Under the pieces are notes generated by a model. The model saw only the letters and a list, made by a program, of their open reading frames with translations, did no database searches and was not told the DNA's origin. This document shows positions 8,620 through 61,379 of a stretch of DNA of 64,000 nucleotides, one piece after another. The position numbers were made by a program, and so were the translations under genes. Numbering within the stretch: position 1 is the first letter of the stretch; each line of letters begins with the position of its first letter. Source of the DNA: Verrucomicrobiota bacterium (GTDB lineage Bacteria > Verrucomicrobiota > Verrucomicrobiia > Chthoniobacterales > UBA10450); assembly GCA_003219695.1 (NCBI GenBank), contig QHQA01000014.1, positions 26,081 through 90,080 of the forward strand. The letters run 5' to 3'.

Positions 8620-8764
8620 TCTGGGGAGCACAGGCTGCCAGCCTGTCGGTCTCGGCAGCTTGCCGAGGCGGGCAAATTTCGTGCGATTTTAGAATTGCGT
8701 GTTCCAGAAGATGTTGTCGGCAGGGCTGCCGACAACTACAGGCTGGCAGCCTGTGCTCCCCAGA
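8620..8764. repeat. 145-bp compound palindromic element, copy 1
   Basis: The ends TCTGGGGAGCACAGGCTGCC and its reverse complement form terminal inverted repeats of about 27 bp ending ...CAGCCTGT. Inside are a left hairpin (CTCGGCAGCTTGCCGAG) and a right hairpin (GTTGTCGGCAGGGCTGCCGACAAC), separated by about 40 bp. Copy 2 at 31181-31324 has the same ends with the inner hairpins in reverse order. It encodes no protein and looks like a non-autonomous mobile element. Confidence 0.85.
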
Positions 8765-8800
8765 CATTGCCGCGAACGTGGGCGAGTGCTACGTAATCAT

Positions 8801-10930: not shown

Positions 10931-10963
10931 TTGCAATGCCGCCTGGCTTTTGTGAGTCATCCC

Positions 10964-10988
10964 GGCGCGCCCGGCGGTCGCGCCCTAC
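10964..10988. repeat. Single palindromic element, GGCGCGCC...CCCTAC type
   Basis: Reads GGCGCGCCCGGCGGTCGCGC then CCTAC. The reverse complement GTAGGGCGCGACCGCCGGGC is the form seen at 54691. Near-identical copies lie at 34203-34227 and 54691-54715, with a relative at 40303-40327. Confidence 0.8.
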
Positions 10989-11080
10989 CGCTGCTGCATT
11001 TGAATTACTGCGCGTTTCTTACAGATGCGTTACTTGAGAGAATTTGAACCATCTCAGAGGCTGTGTTTTCTAATGGAACT

Positions 11081-11795: not shown

Positions 11796-12593
11796 TCACA
11801 CGCGTTTCGGGGAGAGCCGTAATACCAAGCGCACGACTGGCATCGGCATCAGCCGACTCAGGAACATTGCAATCTTCATTGCAAGTCCAGGAATTACCAG
11901 GGGCAGGTCTGCTTCCAGCGCGGCCAGCGCCTGACGCACGACTTGTTGAACCGGAACAAAAAGAATTCTCGAACCCATCACGGGCTGAGCGCCCGGACGT
12001 GCGGCGATTTCTTGAAATTCCGTGCGCACAGGACCGGGACACACGGCACATACGCTCACGCCTGTTCTCCAGAGTTCGGCCCGAAGCGCTTCAGAAAAAC
12101 TTGTCACGTACGCTTTGGTAGCGGCGTAAACAGCGTCGCCTGGGATGGGAAGAAAACCAGCTGACGAGCTGACGTTCAGGATGCCGCCGCGGCGTTTTGC
12201 GATCATCTTTGGAAGCAAATGGCGGGTGAGCGAAGTAAGCGCCACCGTATTTACCAGCATCATCTGATCGTTGCGGATGGGATCGCTCGTCGCAAAGGCG
12301 CCGGTATCGCCCAGTCCAGCATTATTGATTAAAAGATCGACATCGATCTTTTCGCGATCGATCCAGTGCATCAATTCCTTGAGTTCCGCAAAATCAGCGA
12401 GATCGACTTTCCGAATGTAAACAGCGAGATTTGGATGCTGCTGTCGCAATTCATCACGCAGCTCAGCCAATCTTTCCTCACGACGCGCCACCAGAATCAT
12501 CGAGCGCGAGCGATTCGCGAGTTGCCGCGCAAATTCGCGCCCGATCCCAGCGGAGGCGCCCGTGATGAGCGCGTTACAGCCGTCGAGGTTCAT
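11796..12593 (-). CDS. Short-chain dehydrogenase/reductase
   Basis: A 265-aa classical SDR with the cofactor motif TGASAGIG, the NNAG stabilising motif, and the catalytic serine (SSSAG) and YAATK tyrosine-lysine pair. The C-terminal region (about 225-260) is hydrophobic with basic residues (LAMKIAMFLSRLMPMPV), as in the DltE/Sadh-like subgroup, so membrane association is possible. Substrate unknown. I start it at ATG 12593, preceded by GAGAGAA; the track's 25 extra residues are translated from the TCATTCCGAGCG repeat. Confidence 0.85.
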   Translation of the reverse strand: MNLDGCNALITGASAGIGREFARQLANRSRSMILVARREERLAELRDELRQQHPNLAVYIRKVDLADFAELKELMHWIDREKIDVDLLINNAGLGDTGAFATSDPIRNDQMMLVNTVALTSLTRHLLPKMIAKRRGGILNVSSSAGFLPIPGDAVYAATKAYVTSFSEALRAELWRTGVSVCAVCPGPVRTEFQEIAARPGAQPVMGSRILFVPVQQVVRQALAALEADLPLVIPGLAMKIAMFLSRLMPMPVVRLVLRLSPKRV

Positions 12594-12604
12594 TTCTCTC
12601 TTTA

Positions 12605-12633
12605 TGTCATTCCGAGCGAAGTCGAGGAATCTC
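12605..12633. repeat. TGTCATTCCGAGCG-type repeat, single copy
   Basis: TGTCATTCCGAGCGAAGTCG followed by AGGAATCTCC. The same unit occurs at 13349 and, in both orientations, at 42243-42503. On the minus strand it supplies the last residues (EIPRLRSE) and the TGA stop of the pseudouridine synthase gene. Confidence 0.85.
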
Positions 12634-13329
12634 CAAGTATTGGTTTGGTCGCAACGAGTCCAGCTCACGCTTTGTCAGCGCCCGCCAATGTCCGCGTGGC
12701 AAATCACCAAGCCGCAGATGACCGATTCGAACGCGAACCAGATGTTTGATGCGGTAGCCAACGCCTTCAAACATGCGACGAACTTGCCGATTTATCCCCT
12801 GTCGAAGAACAACACGCAATTTCGTACGCGTGACCGGGCGGAGTTGCGTGATCTGCGCTCGTTGTCCATCGAGAAAAATTCCGCGCAGCAATCTCGGCGC
12901 GAGCGCCGGGTCCCATGACCGATCCAGCGTCACCTCATATTCTTTCTCGATTTTGTAACGAGGATGCGTGAGCCGCTGCGCCAGTTCGCCATCGTTTGTG
13001 AGAAGAAGCAGGCCCCCAGTTTGCGCGTCCAGACGGCCGATGTTGAACAGCCGGGAAAATTTCTGCGGAAGCAGATCAAAGACTGTATCGCGCGCGTGCG
13101 GATCTTTTCGCGTGGAAACAAACCCCGCCGGTTTATGCAGCATAATGGTAAACGCCGGCGCGACGTGAACCAGTTTGCCATCAACTTTGACGTGATCGTC
13201 CGGGCCAGGCTGTGCGCTGAAGTTGATGCACACCTTACCATTCATGGTGACGCGACCCGCCGCGATTAACTCATCACAATGCCGGCGCGATCCGACGCCG
13301 GCGGCGGCGAGGAAACGGTTGAGGCGCAT
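12607..13329 (-). CDS. rRNA pseudouridine synthase, RsuA/RluB family
   Basis: This 240-aa enzyme isomerises a uridine in rRNA. It has an N-terminal S4 RNA-binding domain (MRLNRFLAAAGVGSRRHCDE) and the catalytic motif GRLDAQTGGLLLLTNDG with the nucleophilic aspartate. The later LRQGINRQVRRMFEGVGY is the conserved R-Q-x-R-R-M block. RluB/RsuA/RluE cannot be told apart safely here; the sequence looks RluB-like. The last eight residues and the stop come from the repeat at 12605-12633. It lies just upstream of the SDR gene on the same strand. Confidence 0.88.
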   Translation of the reverse strand: MRLNRFLAAAGVGSRRHCDELIAAGRVTMNGKVCINFSAQPGPDDHVKVDGKLVHVAPAFTIMLHKPAGFVSTRKDPHARDTVFDLLPQKFSRLFNIGRLDAQTGGLLLLTNDGELAQRLTHPRYKIEKEYEVTLDRSWDPALAPRLLRGIFLDGQRAQITQLRPVTRTKLRVVLRQGINRQVRRMFEGVGYRIKHLVRVRIGHLRLGDLPRGHWRALTKRELDSLRPNQYLEIPRLRSE

Positions 13330-13348: not shown

Positions 13349-13439
13349 TGTCATTCCGAGCGAAGTCGAGGAATCCCGTTGCACGACTGTGAGTAGCGCC
13401 ACGAGATCCTTCGACGTCGCTTCGCTCGCTCAGGATGAC
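13349..13439. repeat. Inverted pair of TCATTCCGAGCG-type repeats
   Basis: The left arm is TGTCATTCCGAGCGAAGTCG. The right arm, in the opposite sense, is GCTTCGCTCGCTCAGGATGA. A 25-30 bp spacer separates them. Together they can fold into a long imperfect hairpin between the rluB-like gene and the small basic protein gene. Confidence 0.75.
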
Positions 13440-21055: not shown

Positions 21056-21802
21056 ATGAATAAGAGCGAAATAAATTTGTGGCCGGGCGTGAGTGAGGCA
21101 GCACGAAATACATTAATCTCGCGCGATTATAAATTGGGCTCTTTGCCACAGCGAGTCGCGCATTCAGGTGTTCCTGCCGGCGAGCTGGCAAAGGCCGACC
21201 GGTCGAGGCCGGAGATAAAGCGTGCCTGGATCCCCGGCGTCGAAATTTTCTCTCGCACAATCCATCCACAGCGTCATCGCGGAGTTTTCGGTGAATTTGT
21301 CCGACGTGACGAGGGAGTCTTGGCTAAAATCGGATTTTGGCCCAGGCAATGGTCGGCGGCGCGCATGTTTGCACCCAGTGCTAAAGGCTTTCATGTGCAT
21401 CCACCCAGTATTCCGCCCGATACGGCCGCCGAGAAATGGCTGCGACGTTTGTTCATTCGCAGGCCCGAGAATTATTCGTTGCGTCGTTATGATGACGAAC
21501 AGTGGGACGTCACGTTTTTTCTCCAGGGACGCGTGGAGATGATTCTGTGCGATGTGCGCACTGGTTTGTCCAAACGCATCATGCGTTTCTTCATCGATGG
21601 CGACAATCACCACAGCAGCAACAATGTGGGAGTGGTCGTTCCACCCGGGGTTGCGCACGCCATTCGCGTAGAAGGGTCGGAAGACGTGGTCATGGTTTAC
21701 GGGACGAGCACCGTTTTTCATCCCGAATTCGAGGGACGTATTGCGAGCGAAGTCGAGACGGCGGAGTTGCCCGAGGCGTGGCGGGAATTTCTTGGGTTGT
21801 AG
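21056..21802 (+). CDS. RmlC-like cupin / dTDP-sugar epimerase-like protein
   Basis: The 248-aa protein has a jelly-roll core: EIFSRTIHPQRHRGVFGEFV near residue 65, then QWDVTFFLQGRVEMILCDVR and VVVPPGVAHAIRVEG near 200. These match the dTDP-4-dehydrorhamnose 3,5-epimerase superfamily in order and spacing. The N-terminal 60 residues are not typical. The catalytic His/Tyr pair cannot be assigned safely, so it may be an epimerase homologue without that activity. It lies 19 bases after the GT2 gene. Its TAG stop belongs to the repeat that starts at 21798. Confidence 0.6.
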   Translation: MNKSEINLWPGVSEAARNTLISRDYKLGSLPQRVAHSGVPAGELAKADRSRPEIKRAWIPGVEIFSRTIHPQRHRGVFGEFVRRDEGVLAKIGFWPRQWSAARMFAPSAKGFHVHPPSIPPDTAAEKWLRRLFIRRPENYSLRRYDDEQWDVTFFLQGRVEMILCDVRTGLSKRIMRFFIDGDNHHSSNNVGVVVPPGVAHAIRVEGSEDVVMVYGTSTVFHPEFEGRIASEVETAELPEAWREFLGL

Positions 21803-21862
21803 CGGCGGTCTATGACCGCCGAAGATGTGGCATAACTACGGCGCTCATAGAGCGCCGCTACA
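21798..21862. repeat. TGTAG/CTACA palindromic doublet
   Basis: Starts TGTAGCGGCGGTCTATGACC and ends AGAGCGCCGCTACA. The two hairpins are GGCGGTC-TAT-GACCGCC and GGCGCTC-ATA-GAGCGCC, separated by 14-20 bp. Its TAG ends the upstream gene. The copy at 60369-60435 shares the left hairpin. Confidence 0.88.
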
Positions 21863-28287: not shown

Positions 28288-29388
28288 TTAGCGGGACGGC
28301 TGCCCGAGCCGTCCTTCATTGGAAACGATCGCGATTCCCCACGGACCATCGCCGACTTTGATCCGGCGCAGTTCTTTGTGCGATTTTGGATCGACAACGG
28401 AGACGTCGTTTGAGGCGCCGTTTGCAGTGTAAAGCTTCGAGCCGCTGGGATCGAGCGCGATTCCCCAGGCGCGATTTCCAACAGGAATCATTGCAATAAT
28501 CGACTCCCCACCCTCCTCCTCTCCTCGCGTGGAGAGGAGAGGCGACCGTTGTCCGTTGATCTTTTGGGTGTCGATGATGGCGACCGCGTTTCCGCGACCC
28601 GTGGAGACGTAAAGTTCTTTGCCATCTTTGGAAATCGCGGTGCCCATCGGCAGCGAGCCTGTTGGCAATTGGATTTTCGACATTAGCTTGTGCGACTTCG
28701 CATCGATAATGGCGACGTAGCCGCCGTTTTCACACGCGGCGTATGCACGCGAGCCGTCCGGCAGAAATGCAACCGAACGCGGCCGGCCACCGGTGTCGAT
28801 TTTTGCGAGCACACGCTGTTGATCGGGGTCGATCGCGAATACTTCGCCTTTTGCTTCGCAGGTGACATACACCTCGCCGTTGCTCGGATTAACTCCGACG
28901 CCTTCCGGCTCGTCCGAGACTTTTATTTTGCCACGCGATTGCCCGGAATCCAAATCGACGATCGACGCGCTGGCTTCGTCTTCATTCGCGATGAACGCGA
29001 ATTTTCCGTCCCTGGAAATCGCGAATTGTTCAGGGTCCGAGCCGACATGCCAGCGATCGATCAACTTCCGCGCTGCGACGTCGATTACAGCAAGACCATC
29101 CGCGCGTTTGTCTGCAGGCGCGCGGCTTTCGTCCACGCCGGGCGCCATTCGCGGCGAGCCGCTCAAGGTCACAAACAGCCGTTTCCCATCGGGCGCGGCG
29201 TGAATGCCGCGCGGCCGTTTGCCCACTGGAAAAGTTGCAACTGCGGCATCCGTCGTCCCGTCAATCACCGTGACGTCGCCCGATCGTTCGTTGCTCACAA
29301 ACACGAGGTAGTTCTGCGCTTCGGCACGGACGACGAGCACCAGGCTCATGGCCACAGTCGCGTTAATCGCGAAAAACTTAAATTTCAT
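28288..29388 (-). CDS. Secreted YVTN-type beta-propeller repeat protein
   Basis: The 366-aa protein begins MKFKFFAINATVAMSLVLVV with a signal peptide. It then repeats about seven blades of about 42 residues with the pattern VxVIDxxxxxxxxxIxVGxxPxGIAxxPDGKxLYVT, for example NYLVFVSNERSGDVTVIDG. Such propellers bind partners or act with redox enzymes in the periplasm; the role is unknown here. One blade junction carries a translated hairpin (28508-28548), and the last residues GRLGQPSR come from another hairpin (28292-28316). I use ATG 29388, not the track's 29508. Confidence 0.8.
   Translation of the reverse strand: MKFKFFAINATVAMSLVLVVRAEAQNYLVFVSNERSGDVTVIDGTTDAAVATFPVGKRPRGIHAAPDGKRLFVTLSGSPRMAPGVDESRAPADKRADGLAVIDVAARKLIDRWHVGSDPEQFAISRDGKFAFIANEDEASASIVDLDSGQSRGKIKVSDEPEGVGVNPSNGEVYVTCEAKGEVFAIDPDQQRVLAKIDTGGRPRSVAFLPDGSRAYAACENGGYVAIIDAKSHKLMSKIQLPTGSLPMGTAISKDGKELYVSTGRGNAVAIIDTQKINGQRSPLLSTRGEEEGGESIIAMIPVGNRAWGIALDPSGSKLYTANGASNDVSVVDPKSHKELRRIKVGDGPWGIAIVSNEGRLGQPSR
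28292..28316. repeat. Hairpin at the propeller gene 3' end
   Basis: GGACGGCT-GCCCG-AGCCGTCC is a perfect 8-bp stem. It is translated as the C-terminal GRLGQPSR, and the TAA stop follows directly. It is not followed by a T-tract, so it is not a typical terminator. Confidence 0.65.
28508..28548. repeat. CTCCTCTCC/GGAGAGGAG hairpin inside the propeller gene
   Basis: CTCCTCTCC-TCGCGT-GGAGAGGAG is translated on the minus strand as SPLLSTRGEEEGG, a low-complexity loop between blades. This is an in-frame repeat insertion. Confidence 0.6.
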
Positions 29389-29443
29389 GCGCTGCCCAGA
29401 TACATCTCGTCCATCTGCGAAGCAACGCCTTTCGCGCTTGCGT

Positions 29444-29468
29444 TGTAGCCGGGATCGGTGATCCCGGC
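29444..29468. repeat. REP half-site downstream of the RAYT gene
   Basis: TGTAGCCGGGATCGGTGATC then CCGGC, a perfect stem GCCGGGATC-GGT-GATCCCGGC. It lies 14 bases beyond the RAYT stop. The same core reappears inverted at 30016-30040 on the other side of the gene. Confidence 0.88.
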
Positions 29469-29482
29469 ATGGACGTGCCCGA

Positions 29483-29944
29483 CTACAAGGCCAGCGACTC
29501 GATCTCACCCTGGAATGGCCAGTCCTCCGACTTCTTGACCAATCCAGCCCGCACCGGATTTTCTTTCACGTAGTCCCACTTCTGGCTGTAGCTCTCGGTT
29601 GAGCGCAAAACGTGGTCGAAGAACTCCTCATGCCAAACTCTTCCAGCAACGTTCAGCTCGCGCGCCATTCGCTTACTGCTCCACTCCTTCCATTTCTGCA
29701 TAAAGATTGGCAGCGGTTTGGAATCTAGTTCCGCCCGGCTAAAGAAATGCACATGTTCAGGCATGATGACGTAGCGCCCAATCGCCCATCCATGCCGACC
29801 ATGCGCCTTGCACCATTCCTCTACGAGTATCGCTGCAACCTCGTTAGACGCCAGAATCGCTCGTCGTCCGAAGATGCATGTAGTGACGAAATAAATCGGC
29901 CAATCGATCCAGATGCATTAGAGCCGGCGCAGATGTTTGTGCAC
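29483..29944 (-). pseudogene. REP-associated tyrosine transposase (RAYT, Y1 family), in-frame stop
   Basis: The track shows only the last 93 aa. The minus frame is open from 29917: CIWIDWPIYFVTTCIFGRRA leads to GRYVIMPEHVHFF, FFDHVLRSTESYSQKWDYV and ENPVRAGLVKK. PEHVHF is the HUH metal-binding motif, and the tyrosine in SYSQKWDYV is the expected nucleophile region. Upstream in the same frame GTG 29944 reads VHKHLRRL, then TAA (29920-29918), then the rest. KHLHRL-x-R-x-W is the usual RAYT start, so a single stop interrupts a full-length gene of about 152 residues. It may be dead, or may start at a non-standard codon. Palindromic REP-like sequences flank it within 15 bases on both sides. Confidence 0.85.
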
Positions 29945-29953
29945 TCGCTCATT

Positions 29954-30040
29954 TGTAGCTGGCATCGGCGATGCCGGCCAGCTTGAATCTTGTAATCGAG
30001 CCCGACAGTCGCCCGACCGGGATCACCGATCCCGGCTACA
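29954..30040. repeat. REPIN-like doublet upstream of the RAYT gene
   Basis: Starts TGTAGCTGGCATCGGCGATG and ends CACCGATCCCGGCTACA. The left hairpin GGCATC-GGC-GATGCC and the right hairpin CCGGGATC-ACC-GATCCCGG face each other across a spacer of about 35 bp. This is the two-hairpin architecture of REPINs. It begins 10 bases from the RAYT GTG. Confidence 0.88.
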
Positions 30041-30081
30041 ACAGCTTGCTCGCTCGTGACAAGTATTGGACGTTTCCTTCC

Positions 30082-31152
30082 ATGCATCCGCACGACAAGC
30101 TTTTCATTCCCGGGCCCGTTGAAGTATCAGAGAAAACATGGGCGGCGTTTTCGCGTCCGATGATTGGACATCGCAGCGAAGATTTTAAAAATCTTTACCG
30201 GGCGATACATCCGAAGCTCCAGATGTTGTTCGGAACGAAGCAGCCGGTGTTCCTTTCCACTTCCTCGGCGTGGGGCGTGATGGAAGCTTCCATTCGCAAC
30301 CTGGTCGATCGCGGCGTGCTTTGCTGCATGTGCGGCGCGTTCTCGGATAAATGGTTCGACGTGGCGAAGCGCTGCGGGAAAAACGCAGAGCCGCTGCGAG
30401 TGGAATGGGGAAAACATATCGACCCAAACGACGTCGATCGACAATTGGCGACTGGAAAGTTCGACACCGTCACATTGACACACAGTGAAACCTCGACCGG
30501 TGTCATGAATCCGCTGGGAGAAATTTGCTCTGTTCTCGCCAAGCATCCCGATGTCGCGCTCATCGTCGATACCGTTTCGTCGTTCTCCGGAGTCAAGATC
30601 GATATGGATGCGCTCGGGATCGATGTGATGCTCACCGGCGCGCAAAAAGCGCTGGCACTGCCACCGGGTTTTTCATTGTTTTCCGTTTCACAGAGCGCGT
30701 TCGCGCGAGCGGAAAAGGTTCCGAATCGCGGATTTTATTTTGATTTCCTGGAGTTCAGAAAAGAACAGGCGGAATGGCTGACACCGAGCACGCCAAGCAT
30801 CGCGCACATCCACGCGTTGCAATCGAAGCTCGACGAAATTTTCGACGAAGGCTTGGAGGCGCGCTTTGCTCGTCACGCGCGCACGAACGCGCTCGTGCAC
30901 GAGTGGGTGCGCCGCACCGGATTCGAATTTTTCGCCGAGGAAGGATTCCGCTCAAAGACGCTTACCTGCGTGAAAAACAACAAGGGCATCGACGTGCTCG
31001 AGCTCGCGCGGAAGCTGCGCGAGAAACATCATTTGGTGATCGATCCCGGTTACGGAAAGATTCGAGGTCAAACCTTCCGCCTCTCAAACATGGGCGACGA
31101 AACGGATGATACCGTCTCGCATTTGCTCACGTGCCTTGATGATGTTCTATAG
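30082..31152 (+). CDS. Class V PLP aminotransferase (alanine/serine-glyoxylate aminotransferase-like)
   Basis: The 356-aa enzyme begins MHPHDKLFIPGPVEVSEKTW, the usual start of this group (GP-x-x-V). It has STSSAWGVMEASIRNL, HSETSTGVMNPL, the cofactor aspartate in LIVDTVSSFSGVKIDM and the PLP lysine in TGAQKALALPPG (near residue 195). Members move amino groups from alanine, serine or phosphoserine. The substrate cannot be fixed from sequence; serine-glyoxylate or a SerC-like role are both possible. I choose ATG 30082; the track's 37 extra residues are translated from the REP doublet. Confidence 0.88.
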   Translation: MHPHDKLFIPGPVEVSEKTWAAFSRPMIGHRSEDFKNLYRAIHPKLQMLFGTKQPVFLSTSSAWGVMEASIRNLVDRGVLCCMCGAFSDKWFDVAKRCGKNAEPLRVEWGKHIDPNDVDRQLATGKFDTVTLTHSETSTGVMNPLGEICSVLAKHPDVALIVDTVSSFSGVKIDMDALGIDVMLTGAQKALALPPGFSLFSVSQSAFARAEKVPNRGFYFDFLEFRKEQAEWLTPSTPSIAHIHALQSKLDEIFDEGLEARFARHARTNALVHEWVRRTGFEFFAEEGFRSKTLTCVKNNKGIDVLELARKLREKHHLVIDPGYGKIRGQTFRLSNMGDETDDTVSHLLTCLDDVL

Positions 31153-31180: not shown

Positions 31181-31324
31181 TCTGGGGAGCACAGGCTGCC
31201 AGCCTGTTGTTGCCGGCAACCCTGCCGGCAACACGTTTTCACGCTTGATTTTGCCAGCATGAGAGAATTACCCGGTCTCGGCAAGCTGCCGAGACCTACA
31301 GGCTGGCAGCCTGTGCTCCCCAGA
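31181..31324. repeat. 144-bp compound palindromic element, copy 2 (inverted core)
   Basis: Shares the ends TCTGGGGAGCACAGGCTGCC and its complement with 8620-8764. The inner hairpins are swapped: left GTTGCCGGCAACCCTGCCGG, right GGTCTCGGCAAGCTGCCGAG. So the core is in the opposite orientation. The middle 40 bp are diverged. Confidence 0.85.
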
Positions 31325-31399
31325 ACGAGATCTGCACGCGCGAGTGACATGCGATCATTTTGCTCAAGCAGCATCACCACGTAGCTTCATTGAGCGTCC

Positions 31400-34128: not shown

Positions 34129-34202
34129 CTGTCGCGCCGGCCAGTTTAAACAACCGATGGCCAAAGTAAATCGCGTGGCCAGAATCAGTCGCGGGAGCGC
34201 GC

Positions 34203-34227
34203 GGCGCGCCCGGCGGTCGCACCCTAC
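34203..34227. repeat. Single palindromic element between rodA and scpA
   Basis: GGCGCGCCCGGCGGTCGCAC then CCTAC, one base different from 10964-10988 over 25 bases. Orientation is the same as that copy. Confidence 0.8.
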
Positions 34228-42242: not shown

Positions 42243-42503
42243 GTCATTCCGAGCGGAGCCCGTTCGACTCGCTTCGCTCGCTCAGGTTAAACTCCGCGCA
42301 GTCGAAGAATCTCTGGAAGCCTCAACAACGTCGCGGATCACCACCGCTTTAACGCTTCAGCGCTTCAACCGTTTAACCCTGCGAAGCTGTTCGTCATTTT
42401 CTTCATTTATGGCATAATAATTTAGAACCTTTTCCGACCGACGAGGGGAGTTGGCTCGTTCCAAAATGAATCCGGAGATTCCTCGACTTCGCTCGGAATG
42501 ACA
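42243..42503. repeat. Cluster of TCATTCCGAGCG-type repeats, both orientations
   Basis: The left unit begins TGTCATTCCGAGCGGAGCCC with an internal GCTTCGCTCGCTCAGG segment. The right unit, inverted, is GATTCCTCGACTTCGCTCGG ending AATGACA. In between lies CGCTTCAGCGCTTCAACCGT plus an AT-rich stretch. The region (about 290 bp) separates the reductase gene from sufT and contains no gene I can support. Confidence 0.75.
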
Positions 42504-42518
42504 AAGAAAGAGAAAGCC

Positions 42519-45180: not shown

Positions 45181-45183
45181 TCT

Positions 45184-45334
45184 GGGTAGCGCACGTGTCT
45201 CGCGTGCTGGTTTCGGCGTTGCGCCGAAACAGGCTTTCCCTTCAATTCATTGCCTTCAGGCGGGGTGGAAGTCACAACAGGAGTCCGCGATGGCGAGGAG
45301 GCCCTCGCCAGCACGCGAGACGCATGCGCTACCC
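45184..45334. repeat. 151-bp compound palindromic element
   Basis: Ends GGGTAGCGCACGTGTCTCGC and, inverted, GCACGCGAGACGCATGCGCT then ACCC. Inner hairpins are GGTTTCGGCGTTGCGCCGAA-type on the left and GATGGCGAGGAGGCCCTCGC on the right. Same layout as 8620 and 31181 but with different end sequence. Its right end provides the TAG stop of the transketolase gene. A half copy lies at 61168-61217. Confidence 0.83.
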
Positions 45335-52510: not shown

Positions 52511-54694
52511 ATGGCCGGAACATCCGCTGCTGAGCGCGCGCTTTATTTCTTTGGGCGCCCGCTGGTGCGCTGCTTTTATCGAGTCACGCCGCTAGGTCTG
52601 GAAAATTTGCCCGATAGCGGATTTCTTCTTTTGCCAAACCACATCAGCTGGGTGGACGCTCTCGTGCTGCAACTCGCCTGTCCGCGCCCGATCCGCTACG
52701 TCATCGACGAGGCCTATTATCACGAGCCGATCTCGCATCCCTTCTTGCGCGCGCTCGGCTGCATTCCAATCAATCCCCGTCATTCACATCATGCCGTTCG
52801 CGCTGCTGCTGAAAAAATCGCTGCCGGCGAGATCGTATGCGTTTTTCCAGAGGGCCAGTTGGAGCGCATGGGGGTGCTGCTGAAGTTGCAACGCGGATAC
52901 GAATTAATCGCGCGGCGCGCGAATGCGACAGTCGTTCCAGTTTGGACGGATCAACTTTGGGGCTCGATCTTCTCGTTCGAGGGCGGCAAATTTTTTTGGA
53001 AATGGCCGAAGCGATTTCGCTATCCGGTGACGGTCGCATTCGGCAAACCGATCAAACCCGAGGCAGCCGACACCGCCACAGTTCGCGCAGAATTGCTCAA
53101 GCTCGCCGAGTTTTGTTTCAGCCGGCGGCCATCATTGGACAGGCATCTTGCCGAAGAATGCGTGCGTGGTCTGAAGCGCGGCCGATTCGGGACAGCAGTC
53201 ATTGATGGAACCGATCACAGCAAACTGAGCCGGGCAAAATTGCTCGGCGCAGCGGCTGCGTTGAGCCGTCATCTCCGAAAAGGATTTCAAGACAAACGAA
53301 TAGCGGTCGTCTTGCCTGCCAGCAGAGGATCGATGCTGGCGAATCTCGCTGTGACGCTGGCGGACAAGGTGCCTGTCGATCTTAATTTCACGATGGGGCG
53401 TGCGGCGAATGAATCCTGCTGCAAGCGCGCCAACTTGCGCGTCGCAATTTCAGCCACGCAATTCATGGAACGAATCAAAGATTTTCCGTGGCCCGAACAC
53501 GTTTTGAAGCTGGACGAACTGGTTCCGCAAATGAAACGCCAGATCATTTTCTGGTGGATTGTGTCGGCCTTGGTCCCGGCACGTTTGCTTTTGCGGCTTT
53601 TGCAAGTTCCCAAAAACGGCGGTCGCGCCGAAGCAGTGTTGCTTTTTACAAGTGGAACGACCGGGGAACCGAAAGGTGTCGTGGTCAGTCATCGCAACGT
53701 CGTGGGAAATGTCTCGCAGTTCCGGCAGCTCCTCGCCGCGAAAAAAAGCGACGCTATCCTCGCGTCGCTGCCCTTCTTTCACACGTTCGGATCGACCGTG
53801 ACGCTTTGGTATCCGGTCATCGAAGGCGTGCGCATCGTCACGTATCCGAATCCATTGGAAGCAGCAACGTGCGCAGCGTTGATCGAGCGATACAAGCTGA
53901 CGTTTCTATTGGCGACACCAAGCTTCCTGCGTCTGTACTTGCGCAAAGCCGAGCCGCATCAGCTTCGCAGTTTGCGCCTCACCATCGTCGGCGCGGAAAA
54001 AATGCCGCTCGATCTGGCAACCCATTTCGAGAAACGCTTTGGCAAAAAAGTTTTCGAAGGCTACGGCCTGACCGAAACCGCGCCGGTGGTGAGCGTTAAT
54101 CTGCCGGAACCAATTGCAGACGCCGAGCCAACCAATCGCCTCGGTTCGGTGGGACGACTGGCGCCGGGAATTGCATCGGAAATTCGTGAACCGGACACAG
54201 AGCACAAACTTTCCCTTTACGAAACCGGGATGCTTTGGCTGCGCGGCGTCAACATTTTCGAAGGTTACCTGCACGATGCCAAAAGGACCGCTGAGGTCCT
54301 GCGCGACGGCTGGTTGAGGACGGGCGACATCGGCCGGTTCGACGAGGACGGCTTTCTTTACATCGAAGGCCGCCTGTCTCGTTTTTCAAAGATCGGCGGC
54401 GAAATGGTGCCGCACGAGGCGATCGAACAAAAAATCATCGACCTATTGGAGTTGTCCGGACGAGATGAACGTCCGATTGCCGTCATGGGCGTGCAAGACG
54501 AAGCCAAGGGCGAAGCGCTCGTTTTGCTCAGCGCCGTCGATCTGGATCTTGCCGAGTTGCGCGAGAAACTTCGCGACGCCGGCGTGCCAAATTTGTGGAT
54601 TCCAAAACACATCCAGCGCGTCGAAGCCATCCCGGTCCTCGCCTCCGGCAAACTCGACTTAAAAAAATGCCAGGAATTGGCAGCCCAACGGTAG
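52511..54694 (+). CDS. Aas-like acyltransferase / acyl-ACP or acyl-CoA synthetase fusion
   Basis: The 727-aa protein has an N-terminal PlsC domain with NHISWVD (HX4D) and PEGQLERMG, and a C-terminal AMP-forming ligase with the core LLFTSGTTGEPKGVVVSH, EGYGLTETAPVVSVN and GWLRTGDIGRFDEDGFL. This is the domain order of E. coli Aas, which re-acylates lyso-phosphatidylethanolamine; the MFS-like LplT domain that often joins it is absent, but an MFS gene lies next door, divergent. Its TAG stop is the first base of a palindromic element. Confidence 0.9.
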   Translation: MAGTSAAERALYFFGRPLVRCFYRVTPLGLENLPDSGFLLLPNHISWVDALVLQLACPRPIRYVIDEAYYHEPISHPFLRALGCIPINPRHSHHAVRAAAEKIAAGEIVCVFPEGQLERMGVLLKLQRGYELIARRANATVVPVWTDQLWGSIFSFEGGKFFWKWPKRFRYPVTVAFGKPIKPEAADTATVRAELLKLAEFCFSRRPSLDRHLAEECVRGLKRGRFGTAVIDGTDHSKLSRAKLLGAAAALSRHLRKGFQDKRIAVVLPASRGSMLANLAVTLADKVPVDLNFTMGRAANESCCKRANLRVAISATQFMERIKDFPWPEHVLKLDELVPQMKRQIIFWWIVSALVPARLLLRLLQVPKNGGRAEAVLLFTSGTTGEPKGVVVSHRNVVGNVSQFRQLLAAKKSDAILASLPFFHTFGSTVTLWYPVIEGVRIVTYPNPLEAATCAALIERYKLTFLLATPSFLRLYLRKAEPHQLRSLRLTIVGAEKMPLDLATHFEKRFGKKVFEGYGLTETAPVVSVNLPEPIADAEPTNRLGSVGRLAPGIASEIREPDTEHKLSLYETGMLWLRGVNIFEGYLHDAKRTAEVLRDGWLRTGDIGRFDEDGFLYIEGRLSRFSKIGGEMVPHEAIEQKIIDLLELSGRDERPIAVMGVQDEAKGEALVLLSAVDLDLAELREKLRDAGVPNLWIPKHIQRVEAIPVLASGKLDLKKCQELAAQR

Positions 54695-54715
54695 GGCGCG
54701 ACCGCCGGGCGCGCC
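54691..54715. repeat. Single palindromic element at the aas-like 3' end
   Basis: GTAGGGCGCGACCGCCGGGC then GCGCC, the exact reverse complement of 10964-10988. Its TAG (54692-54694) ends the aas-like gene. Confidence 0.85.
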
Positions 54716-61049: not shown

Positions 61050-61379
61050 TTATACAGCCACATAGGGAGAATCCGGAGACAGTCTGTTATAGCGTGCGCT
61101 GTCCTCAGCGCAGAAAGTGGCCACGCTGCAGACTTGCCGCGGAGAGAACGCAGGAACGTGTTGGAGAGCATACGCGTCTCGCGTGTTGGTTTCAGCAGCC
61201 TCGCCGAAACGAACTTTATTAATCCCCCGGCTGCTGTATGCGCCGTCGATCTCGCCGCAATTAAATCCGCCGTCGCACATTTTCCTCTGCACCTCGCGCA
61301 TGTTATTCGTTTCGTCTGCCGAAACTGATCTGGCGACTGCAAGCCGGACCGCCGCAACCCGCAATTGCAACAATGGCAT
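61050..61379 (-). pseudogene. Remnant with a peptidoglycan-binding-like segment, interrupted by a repeat
   Basis: Residues about 27-52 (MREVQRKMCDGGFNCGEIDG then AYSSRGINKVRF) fit the PG_binding_1 pattern VQxxLxxxGFxxGxIDGxYGxxTxxAVxxF. The reading then runs into the half repeat at 61168-61217 and loses similarity. A hydrophobic start (MPLLQLRVAAVRLAVARSVS) could be a signal. It is probably a decayed secreted cell-wall protein. Confidence 0.4.
61168..61217. repeat. Half copy of the 151-bp compound element
   Basis: GCATACGCGTCTCGCGTGTT then GGTTTCAGCAGCCTCGCCGA-AAC aligns with the left end of 45184 (GTCTCGCGTGCTGGTTTCGG). The right half is absent. Confidence 0.65.

Follow-up and report, generated by a model that had tools for sequence, protein, structure and literature searches.

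A REPtron, which is a known kind of element, occupies positions 29442-30042 of the 64,000-nucleotide stretch of DNA analysed here (the window). It comprises a RAYT gene on the minus strand between GTAG-tagged hairpins (REPs) and is a broken member of the RAYT family. Very probably it is a REPtron with its cognate REPs, in which the gene copy has recently died and whose REP-RAYT-REP unit is not fixed among relatives.

The RAYT (TnpA_REP) coding frame covers 29486-29944 on the minus strand. It begins with a GTG codon (29942-29944), is interrupted by a TAA (29918-29920) and reads (GTG)HKHLRRL-TAA-CIWIDWPIYF...MPEHVHFF...WDYVKENPVRAGLV...-TAG. The residues following the TAA are CIWIDWPIYFVTTC...MPEHVHFF...VWHEEFFDHVLRSTESYSQKWDYVKENPVRAGLV...ESLAL-TAG; they include the HVH motif and a catalytic-type tyrosine (WDYVKENP). 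The first-pass annotation had proposed a RAYT transposase here from an HUH motif and a KHLRRL start on the minus strand. Both are present in the frame, and the identification is borne out by the 144 residues after the TAA. These score 106.8 bits with the NCBIfam model of the REP-associated tyrosine transposase (NF047646, cut-off 80) and 25.6 bits with Pfam Y1_Tnp (PF01797, cut-off 23), and they match the solved structure of E. coli TnpA_REP (4er8, E 1.5e-11) with the HUH and tyrosine region aligned. HxH and Tyr are kept in all 47 homologous loci. Further attributes of the family are inverted GTAG REP flanks, REP specificity (some loci have no call from the hairpin finder) and a single copy, all of which are found. 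An intact open reading frame is missing from the window copy; relatives with no inside stop exist, G014 among them.

We also considered membership of the IS200/IS605 group, and rejected it. The Y1 transposase family and the end hairpins are common to both kinds of element, and the model NF033573 does give a score. This score (21.7 bits) is nevertheless below its cut-off of 55, and the genome has a single copy of this RAYT type and no set of near-identical copies. The ends of IS200/IS605 elements are in direct arrangement, whereas the REPs here are inverted, and no tnpB was noticed beside the RAYT. That the unit is an IS200/IS605 insertion sequence is therefore extremely improbable.

Hairpins had been reported within 15 bases of the gene on both sides, and this holds. 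On the gene's 3' side, the outer REP (29442-29468, plus strand) has a GTTGTAG tag and then a complete GCCGGGATC-GGT-GATCCCGGC hairpin. What was previously described as a half-site at 29444 is thus an entire 9-bp hairpin (29448-29468, GTAG tag 29445-29448). Adjoining it is a decayed REP (29469-29488, minus strand), whose TTGTAG tag leads into a ruined stem. Inside this tag sits the stop codon of the RAYT (TAG, 29483-29485); several relatives have an intact downstream REP that starts at the RAYT stop codon (TTGTAGCC), of which the window retains the tag with its stem ruined. On the 5' side lie an inner REP (29954-29978, plus strand, stem CTGGCATC/GATGCCGG) and an outer REP (30017-30042, minus strand, stem CCGGGATC/GATCCCGG). 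The inverted doublet noted at 29954 is therefore real, but its two members do not have the same stem: only 30017-30042 has the GGGATC stem, and the doublet is a heterotypic REPIN of about 87 bp (29954-30042). The outer pair (29442-29467 and 30017-30042) forms a perfect 26-bp inverted repeat, each half of which is a GTAG-tagged hairpin. DNA folding places the left REP 4.4 and the REPIN 3.9 standard deviations below shuffles. A loose REP detector found six REPs in the window (three of another stem family) compared with one in 100 shuffled windows. No preferred target dinucleotide was found by eye at the outer ends of the unit.

The REP population extends over the whole genome, as the first reading had supposed. 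A search of the host genome (a draft of 3.14 Mb in 224 contigs, 92.9% complete) with TGTAGCCGGGATCNNNGATCCCGG, allowing up to two mismatches, gave 56 matches and none for the backward control. Twenty of these are exact, 11 have one mismatch and 25 have two. Among the two-mismatch copies, 19 of 25 differ by one compensatory pair change, for which a simple null expects 1.3% each; many compensated copies share few stem types, so that there were few independent events and shared descent inflates the count. In the 30 loci examined in this genome (about 3 kb or less each) there are 41 REPs, 20 of which form 10 convergent pairs. The two stems of a pair are unlike in all 10 cases. This is not a product of the choice of loci, since choosing by the GGGATC stem would favour like pairs. 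The 29954-30042 doublet and these 10 pairs thus make two inverted REPs a repeated unit, that is, a REPIN. A related hairpin pattern has at least one match in 34 of 35 genomes of the genus, most in the host genome (46), and none in any control. Across the genus, REP number does not simply follow the presence of a close RAYT, because G030, G028 and G021 are rich in REPs without one.

The type of hairpin shifts with the RAYT clade, in agreement with the proposal that the flanking hairpins are cognate to this enzyme. We compared stems in 34 RAYT loci that are 40-79% identical to the window copy, using a strict stem finder that missed degenerate REPs and made no call in several relatives. Where a hairpin is called, loci at least 61% identical to the window copy have CCGGGATC or CCGGCATC stems; at about 50-58% identity the stems that could be called or read are of the CCGCGG or CCGGGG type, and below 50% the stems are different again. 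It is highly improbable that these are ordinary terminators, or regulatory palindromes with no link to the gene. They are indeed stable and intergenic, as such structures would be, but terminators account neither for the GTAG tag nor for the heterotypic inverted pairing (10 of 10 pairs), nor for a stem type that is common within a RAYT clade and changes between clades.

The host genome contains several other RAYT/REP systems. A search for further RAYT genes gave 12 RAYT-like matches (two of which are pieces of one gene on contig C112), the second best being 42% identical to the window copy. Nine other RAYT-like loci were examined, and none has hairpins of this RAYT's own TGTAGCCGGGATC type in its flanks (the upstream flank of L003 is partly N); other hairpins or none were detected there. 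The suggestion that a second RAYT works in trans is thus not supported, and the REPs of this family appear to be left with no detectable cognate enzyme in their own genome ('orphaned REPs'), with the reservation that an assembly 92.9% complete may have missed a second copy.

The earlier proposal that the RAYT mobilised the palindromes of the window goes too far: most other palindrome families in the window, including four further ones, match the flanks of other RAYTs and not of this one. The L011 type (GGGGAGCACAGGCTGCCAGCCTGT; 42 genome copies, control 0) flanks the RAYT at G000:C8:2365-2658 on both sides and provides the inverted-pair elements at 8620-8765 and 31181-31325. The L009/L007 type (GTAGCGCACGNGTCNCGCGTGC; 52 copies, control 0) flanks the RAYTs at C113 (both sides) and C84, and is found in the window at 45181-45334 and 61160-61217. 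The L004 type (GGTAGGGCGCGACCGCCGGGCGCGCC; 56 copies, 33 of them exact, control 0) brackets the RAYT at C100, is repeated in the window at 10961-10993, 34202-34227 and 54686-54715, and is possibly the family that spread most recently. Within these repeats, the stretches matching RAYT flanks are 61172-61217 for the second L009/L007 element, and 10961-10989 and 54690-54715 for the first and third L004 elements. The fourth, the L002 type, is a weak match to a RAYT flank (820-844). With the window RAYT's own family, the L011, L009/L007 and L004 types make four hairpin families counted in this genome, of 42-56 copies each. That every tnpA_REP comes with a REP family of its own is already reported in passages of PMC6006769 and PMC3733652. 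The window also includes GTAGCGGCGGTC-n3-GACCGCCG hairpins at 21798-21862 and 60369 (a further REP-like type, with a like stem flanking the RAYT in L070), TGTCATTCCGAGCGAAGTCGAGGAATC repeats apparently of another kind (12593-12634, 13349-13375 and 42474-42515) and 102-base tandem repeats at 2032-2964, probably a repeat protein gene.

The TAA that had been read after eight codons is there: counting from the GTG it is the ninth codon. We compared this position in 47 homologous loci (L043-L072 and L077-L093; not included are L094, which is partial, and L073-L076, which match contigs that other loci already represent). None of the 46 readable loci has a stop here. Homologues have sense codons, and in the close ones these are mostly Glu or Gln: among the 11 loci of at least 61% identity, the 10 that can be read have six Glu, two Gln, one Arg (G024, where the frame is disturbed) and one Trp (G008). 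A second change affects a position reported to contact GTAG: the residue that a passage of PMC6006769 lists as Q95 of E. coli, in the region that recognises GTAG, is H in the window copy and Q in 44 of 47 homologues. For pairs that include the window copy, the computable dN/dS values are 0.09-0.19, within a range of 0.03-0.22 for other RAYT pairs (0.53 for one nearly identical pair). Such low values indicate that the RAYT was constrained through most of its history, so that the stop is either young or an error. Taken together, the TAA, the Q to H change and the low dN/dS suggest from sequence comparison that the copy died recently, as the first-pass annotation had surmised in part.

The TAA could instead be a sequencing, binning or consensus error in an intact gene. 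The window comes from a single draft assembly, and the dN/dS of pairs with this copy resembles that of other pairs. We think this quite unlikely given the second unusual change at the reported GTAG-contact position, and given that other copies in the family are also broken (a TAG inside the gene in G019 and G047, a disturbed N-terminus in G024 and G008). In G001 (L099), a REP is inserted in frame within its own RAYT gene and adds about ten codons before the WQ motif.

RAYTs with 61-79% identity to the window copy occur at the window site, at a helicase site, between hutU and ftcD, between parB and an M28 gene, between lpxC and lpxA, and on one further contig (in G009). In L048 (also G009), a 103-base tandem duplication upstream of the RAYT holds a REPIN and the first RAYT codons. 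All the genomes compared are draft assemblies.

To recognise empty sites we used the neighbouring genes, which at the window site encode a beta-propeller-like protein on the left (28288-29388, minus strand) and an aminotransferase-like protein on the right (30082-31152, plus strand), both named by eye. The right neighbour is matched in 33 of 35 genomes of the genus, and 20 of the 30 loci read also show the left one. Four of these 20 (G000, G014, G001 and G032) have a RAYT or a remnant: in G032 the outer REPs are present and most of the gene is deleted. In G030 the two outer REPs enclose other sequence, in G033 the left REP is present, and at 14 loci there is neither RAYT nor REP; in G018 the left and right flank blocks are a few bases apart.

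The other sites are likewise filled in few genomes. At the helicase site, both neighbours are found in 14 genomes, two of which are filled (G015 and G024) and 12 empty, with gaps of 58-322 bases. In G026 and G034 the RAYT is at a contig end beside one neighbour; these contigs are 92.8% alike over 2 kb in two genomes that the aminotransferase tree separates, and this near identity may result from misbinning or transfer. The hutU-ftcD site has a RAYT in AV106 and in G047 (another genus) and in none of the 25 rows of the genus that show hutU (two rows each for G002 and G009). REPs occur at this place in G008, G018 and G031, and worn REPs in G000 and G012. For parB-M28, 28 rows show both neighbours: a RAYT is present in one of them (G019) and absent from 27; one further row lacks the neighbour. 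Between lpxC and lpxA, one of 30 rows is filled (G008). In the other 29 the two genes are -1 to 213 bases apart, except for one gap of 800 bases with neither RAYT nor REP.

These observations bear on the view, found in passages of PMC8266576, PMC6006769 and PMC8049555, of a canonical, immobile REPtron, in which a domesticated, vertically inherited RAYT moves REPINs only. The several sites would then be old paralogues with differential loss, or would have rearranged flanks. The presence of one copy of this type per genome, the low dN/dS and the occupation of hutU-ftcD in two genera are consistent with this. On the other hand, the flanking genes are adjacent with no RAYT between them in most relatives (parB-M28, lpxC-lpxA and helicase sites), so that the flanks have not been rearranged. 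Moreover, old paralogues would still require an earlier dispersal, and the window-site RAYT copies group with those of the helicase site (support 88/91). This tree (432 columns) has many weak forks and a weak deeper order, and omits the G032 remnant, whose row ran into the neighbouring gene, as well as nine more distant rows. We therefore consider an immobile REPtron unlikely, while leaving it more room than the other alternatives. Two copies of this RAYT type were not seen together in any of the genomes compared, so that no case of duplication in action was seen.

The preferred reading, a unit that is not fixed, is further supported by its orientation. At the window site, G000 and G014 have the gene directed against the aminotransferase gene, and G001 and G032 have the two in the same direction; the left neighbour keeps one direction throughout. 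In both directions, the left outer junction is AGC or TGC followed by GTTGTAGCC, and the right one is GGCTACAA, then C or G, then the GCTTGCTCGC block. The aminotransferase tree places G001 and G014 in one group of four (100/99) and G000 and G032 outside it. By our count, the gene must then have changed direction twice or more, or else have inserted repeatedly in the same place. Such in-place inversion could be plain homologous recombination, for which the transposase is not needed. At parB-M28, G019 has the arrangement REPIN-RAYT-REPIN, in which both REPINs have a common inner sequence (TCTTCGAAA...CCTGCGC). In G028 this place is occupied by one REPIN alone, with a similar inner sequence; the inner sequences of other REPINs differ from these. 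The pattern is consistent with a unit that was gained at a resident REPIN, or was lost again with a REPIN left behind.

A possible course of events can be outlined by analogy with E. coli. The RAYT protein would bind the GTAG foot and the stem of a REP in single-stranded DNA, and would cleave beside the REP and rejoin the strands, as described for TnpA_REP in passages of PMC8266576. About 56 REPs would have been dispersed in this way, some of them in heterotypic REPINs; the chemistry we infer, while the copies, their stems and their pairing are observed. The gene copy would then have died through the TAA and the Q to H change, leaving its REPs behind. The REP-RAYT-REP unit would reach several sites and be gained or lost at resident REPINs; between the outer inverted REPs it would also undergo inversion at a given site. 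The outer inverted REPs, or whole REPINs, would be the crossover places for relocation, inversion and loss, whether by RecA or by the enzyme. The comparisons suggest that the hairpins are the means by which the unit relocates, flips and disappears, and the likeliest route, which we put at about an even chance, would be recombination between REPs or REPINs, whether or not the transposase assists. The unit may also have come to new sites by horizontal transfer, which would likewise count as mobility. More broadly, and here our judgement is evenly divided, the REPtrons of this genus may be mobile as whole units. They would behave as giant REPIN-like elements that enter and leave REPIN-bearing or REPIN-capable sites, flip, and decay by internal deletion to a plain REPIN. 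On this view a REPIN would be more than the passenger of a domesticated enzyme: it would be a miniature form derived from an element that still moves.

Many of the components are already known. RAYTs, REPs, REPINs, genomes with several REPtrons and GTAG repeats in Verrucomicrobia are described in passages of PMC3733652, PMC6006769, PMC3116915, PMC8049555, PMC8266576 and PMC3686654. The unit resembles the REPtrons of E. coli (4er8) and other gammaproteobacteria in its HUH and Tyr enzyme, its WQ motif region, the GTAG hairpins bracketing the gene, the single copy of the type per genome and the dispersed REPs and inverted pairs. It differs from them in phylum and stem, in the REP tag that overlaps the RAYT stop codon, in the site changes and in-place inversion among close relatives, and in the broken window copy. 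Passages of PMC3733652 name a species of Verrucomicrobia (O. terrae) as rich in GTAG repeats and describe families that, like ours, bear the GTAG tag, form oppositely oriented dimers, include REPs overlapping RAYT ends and, in multi-family species, have repeat-specific REPtrons. The window family and genus, on the other hand, are absent from the passages of that paper that we compared. As with the REPINs described in passages of PMC3116915, the unit here is an inverted REP doublet, presumed to be non-autonomous and moved by a RAYT; unlike those, the paired REPs differ in 10 of 10 pairs. Among the open-access papers searched, we found none on this genus or on inversion of the unit.

As to mobility, RAYTs appear incapable of self-mobilization according to passages of PMC3116915, and the RAYT gene itself is stated not to be mobile in those of PMC8266576 and PMC6006769. 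A passage of PMC3686654 reports that in certain strains RAYTs occupy new positions on the chromosome, so that a change of RAYT site has some precedent. What the present comparisons put in question, through the changes of site, the unoccupied sites and the inversion, is the absence of RAYT mobility stated in print (PMC8266576 and PMC6006769, in the passages concerned). In this genus of soil Verrucomicrobia, one RAYT type occupies several sites that are empty in sister species, lies in opposite orientations at one of them and shows an exchange between REPIN and REPtron, which makes the question open to a test by genome comparison. The presence of several parallel RAYT/REP systems in one genome also provides a natural setting for studying the fidelity between enzyme and hairpin.
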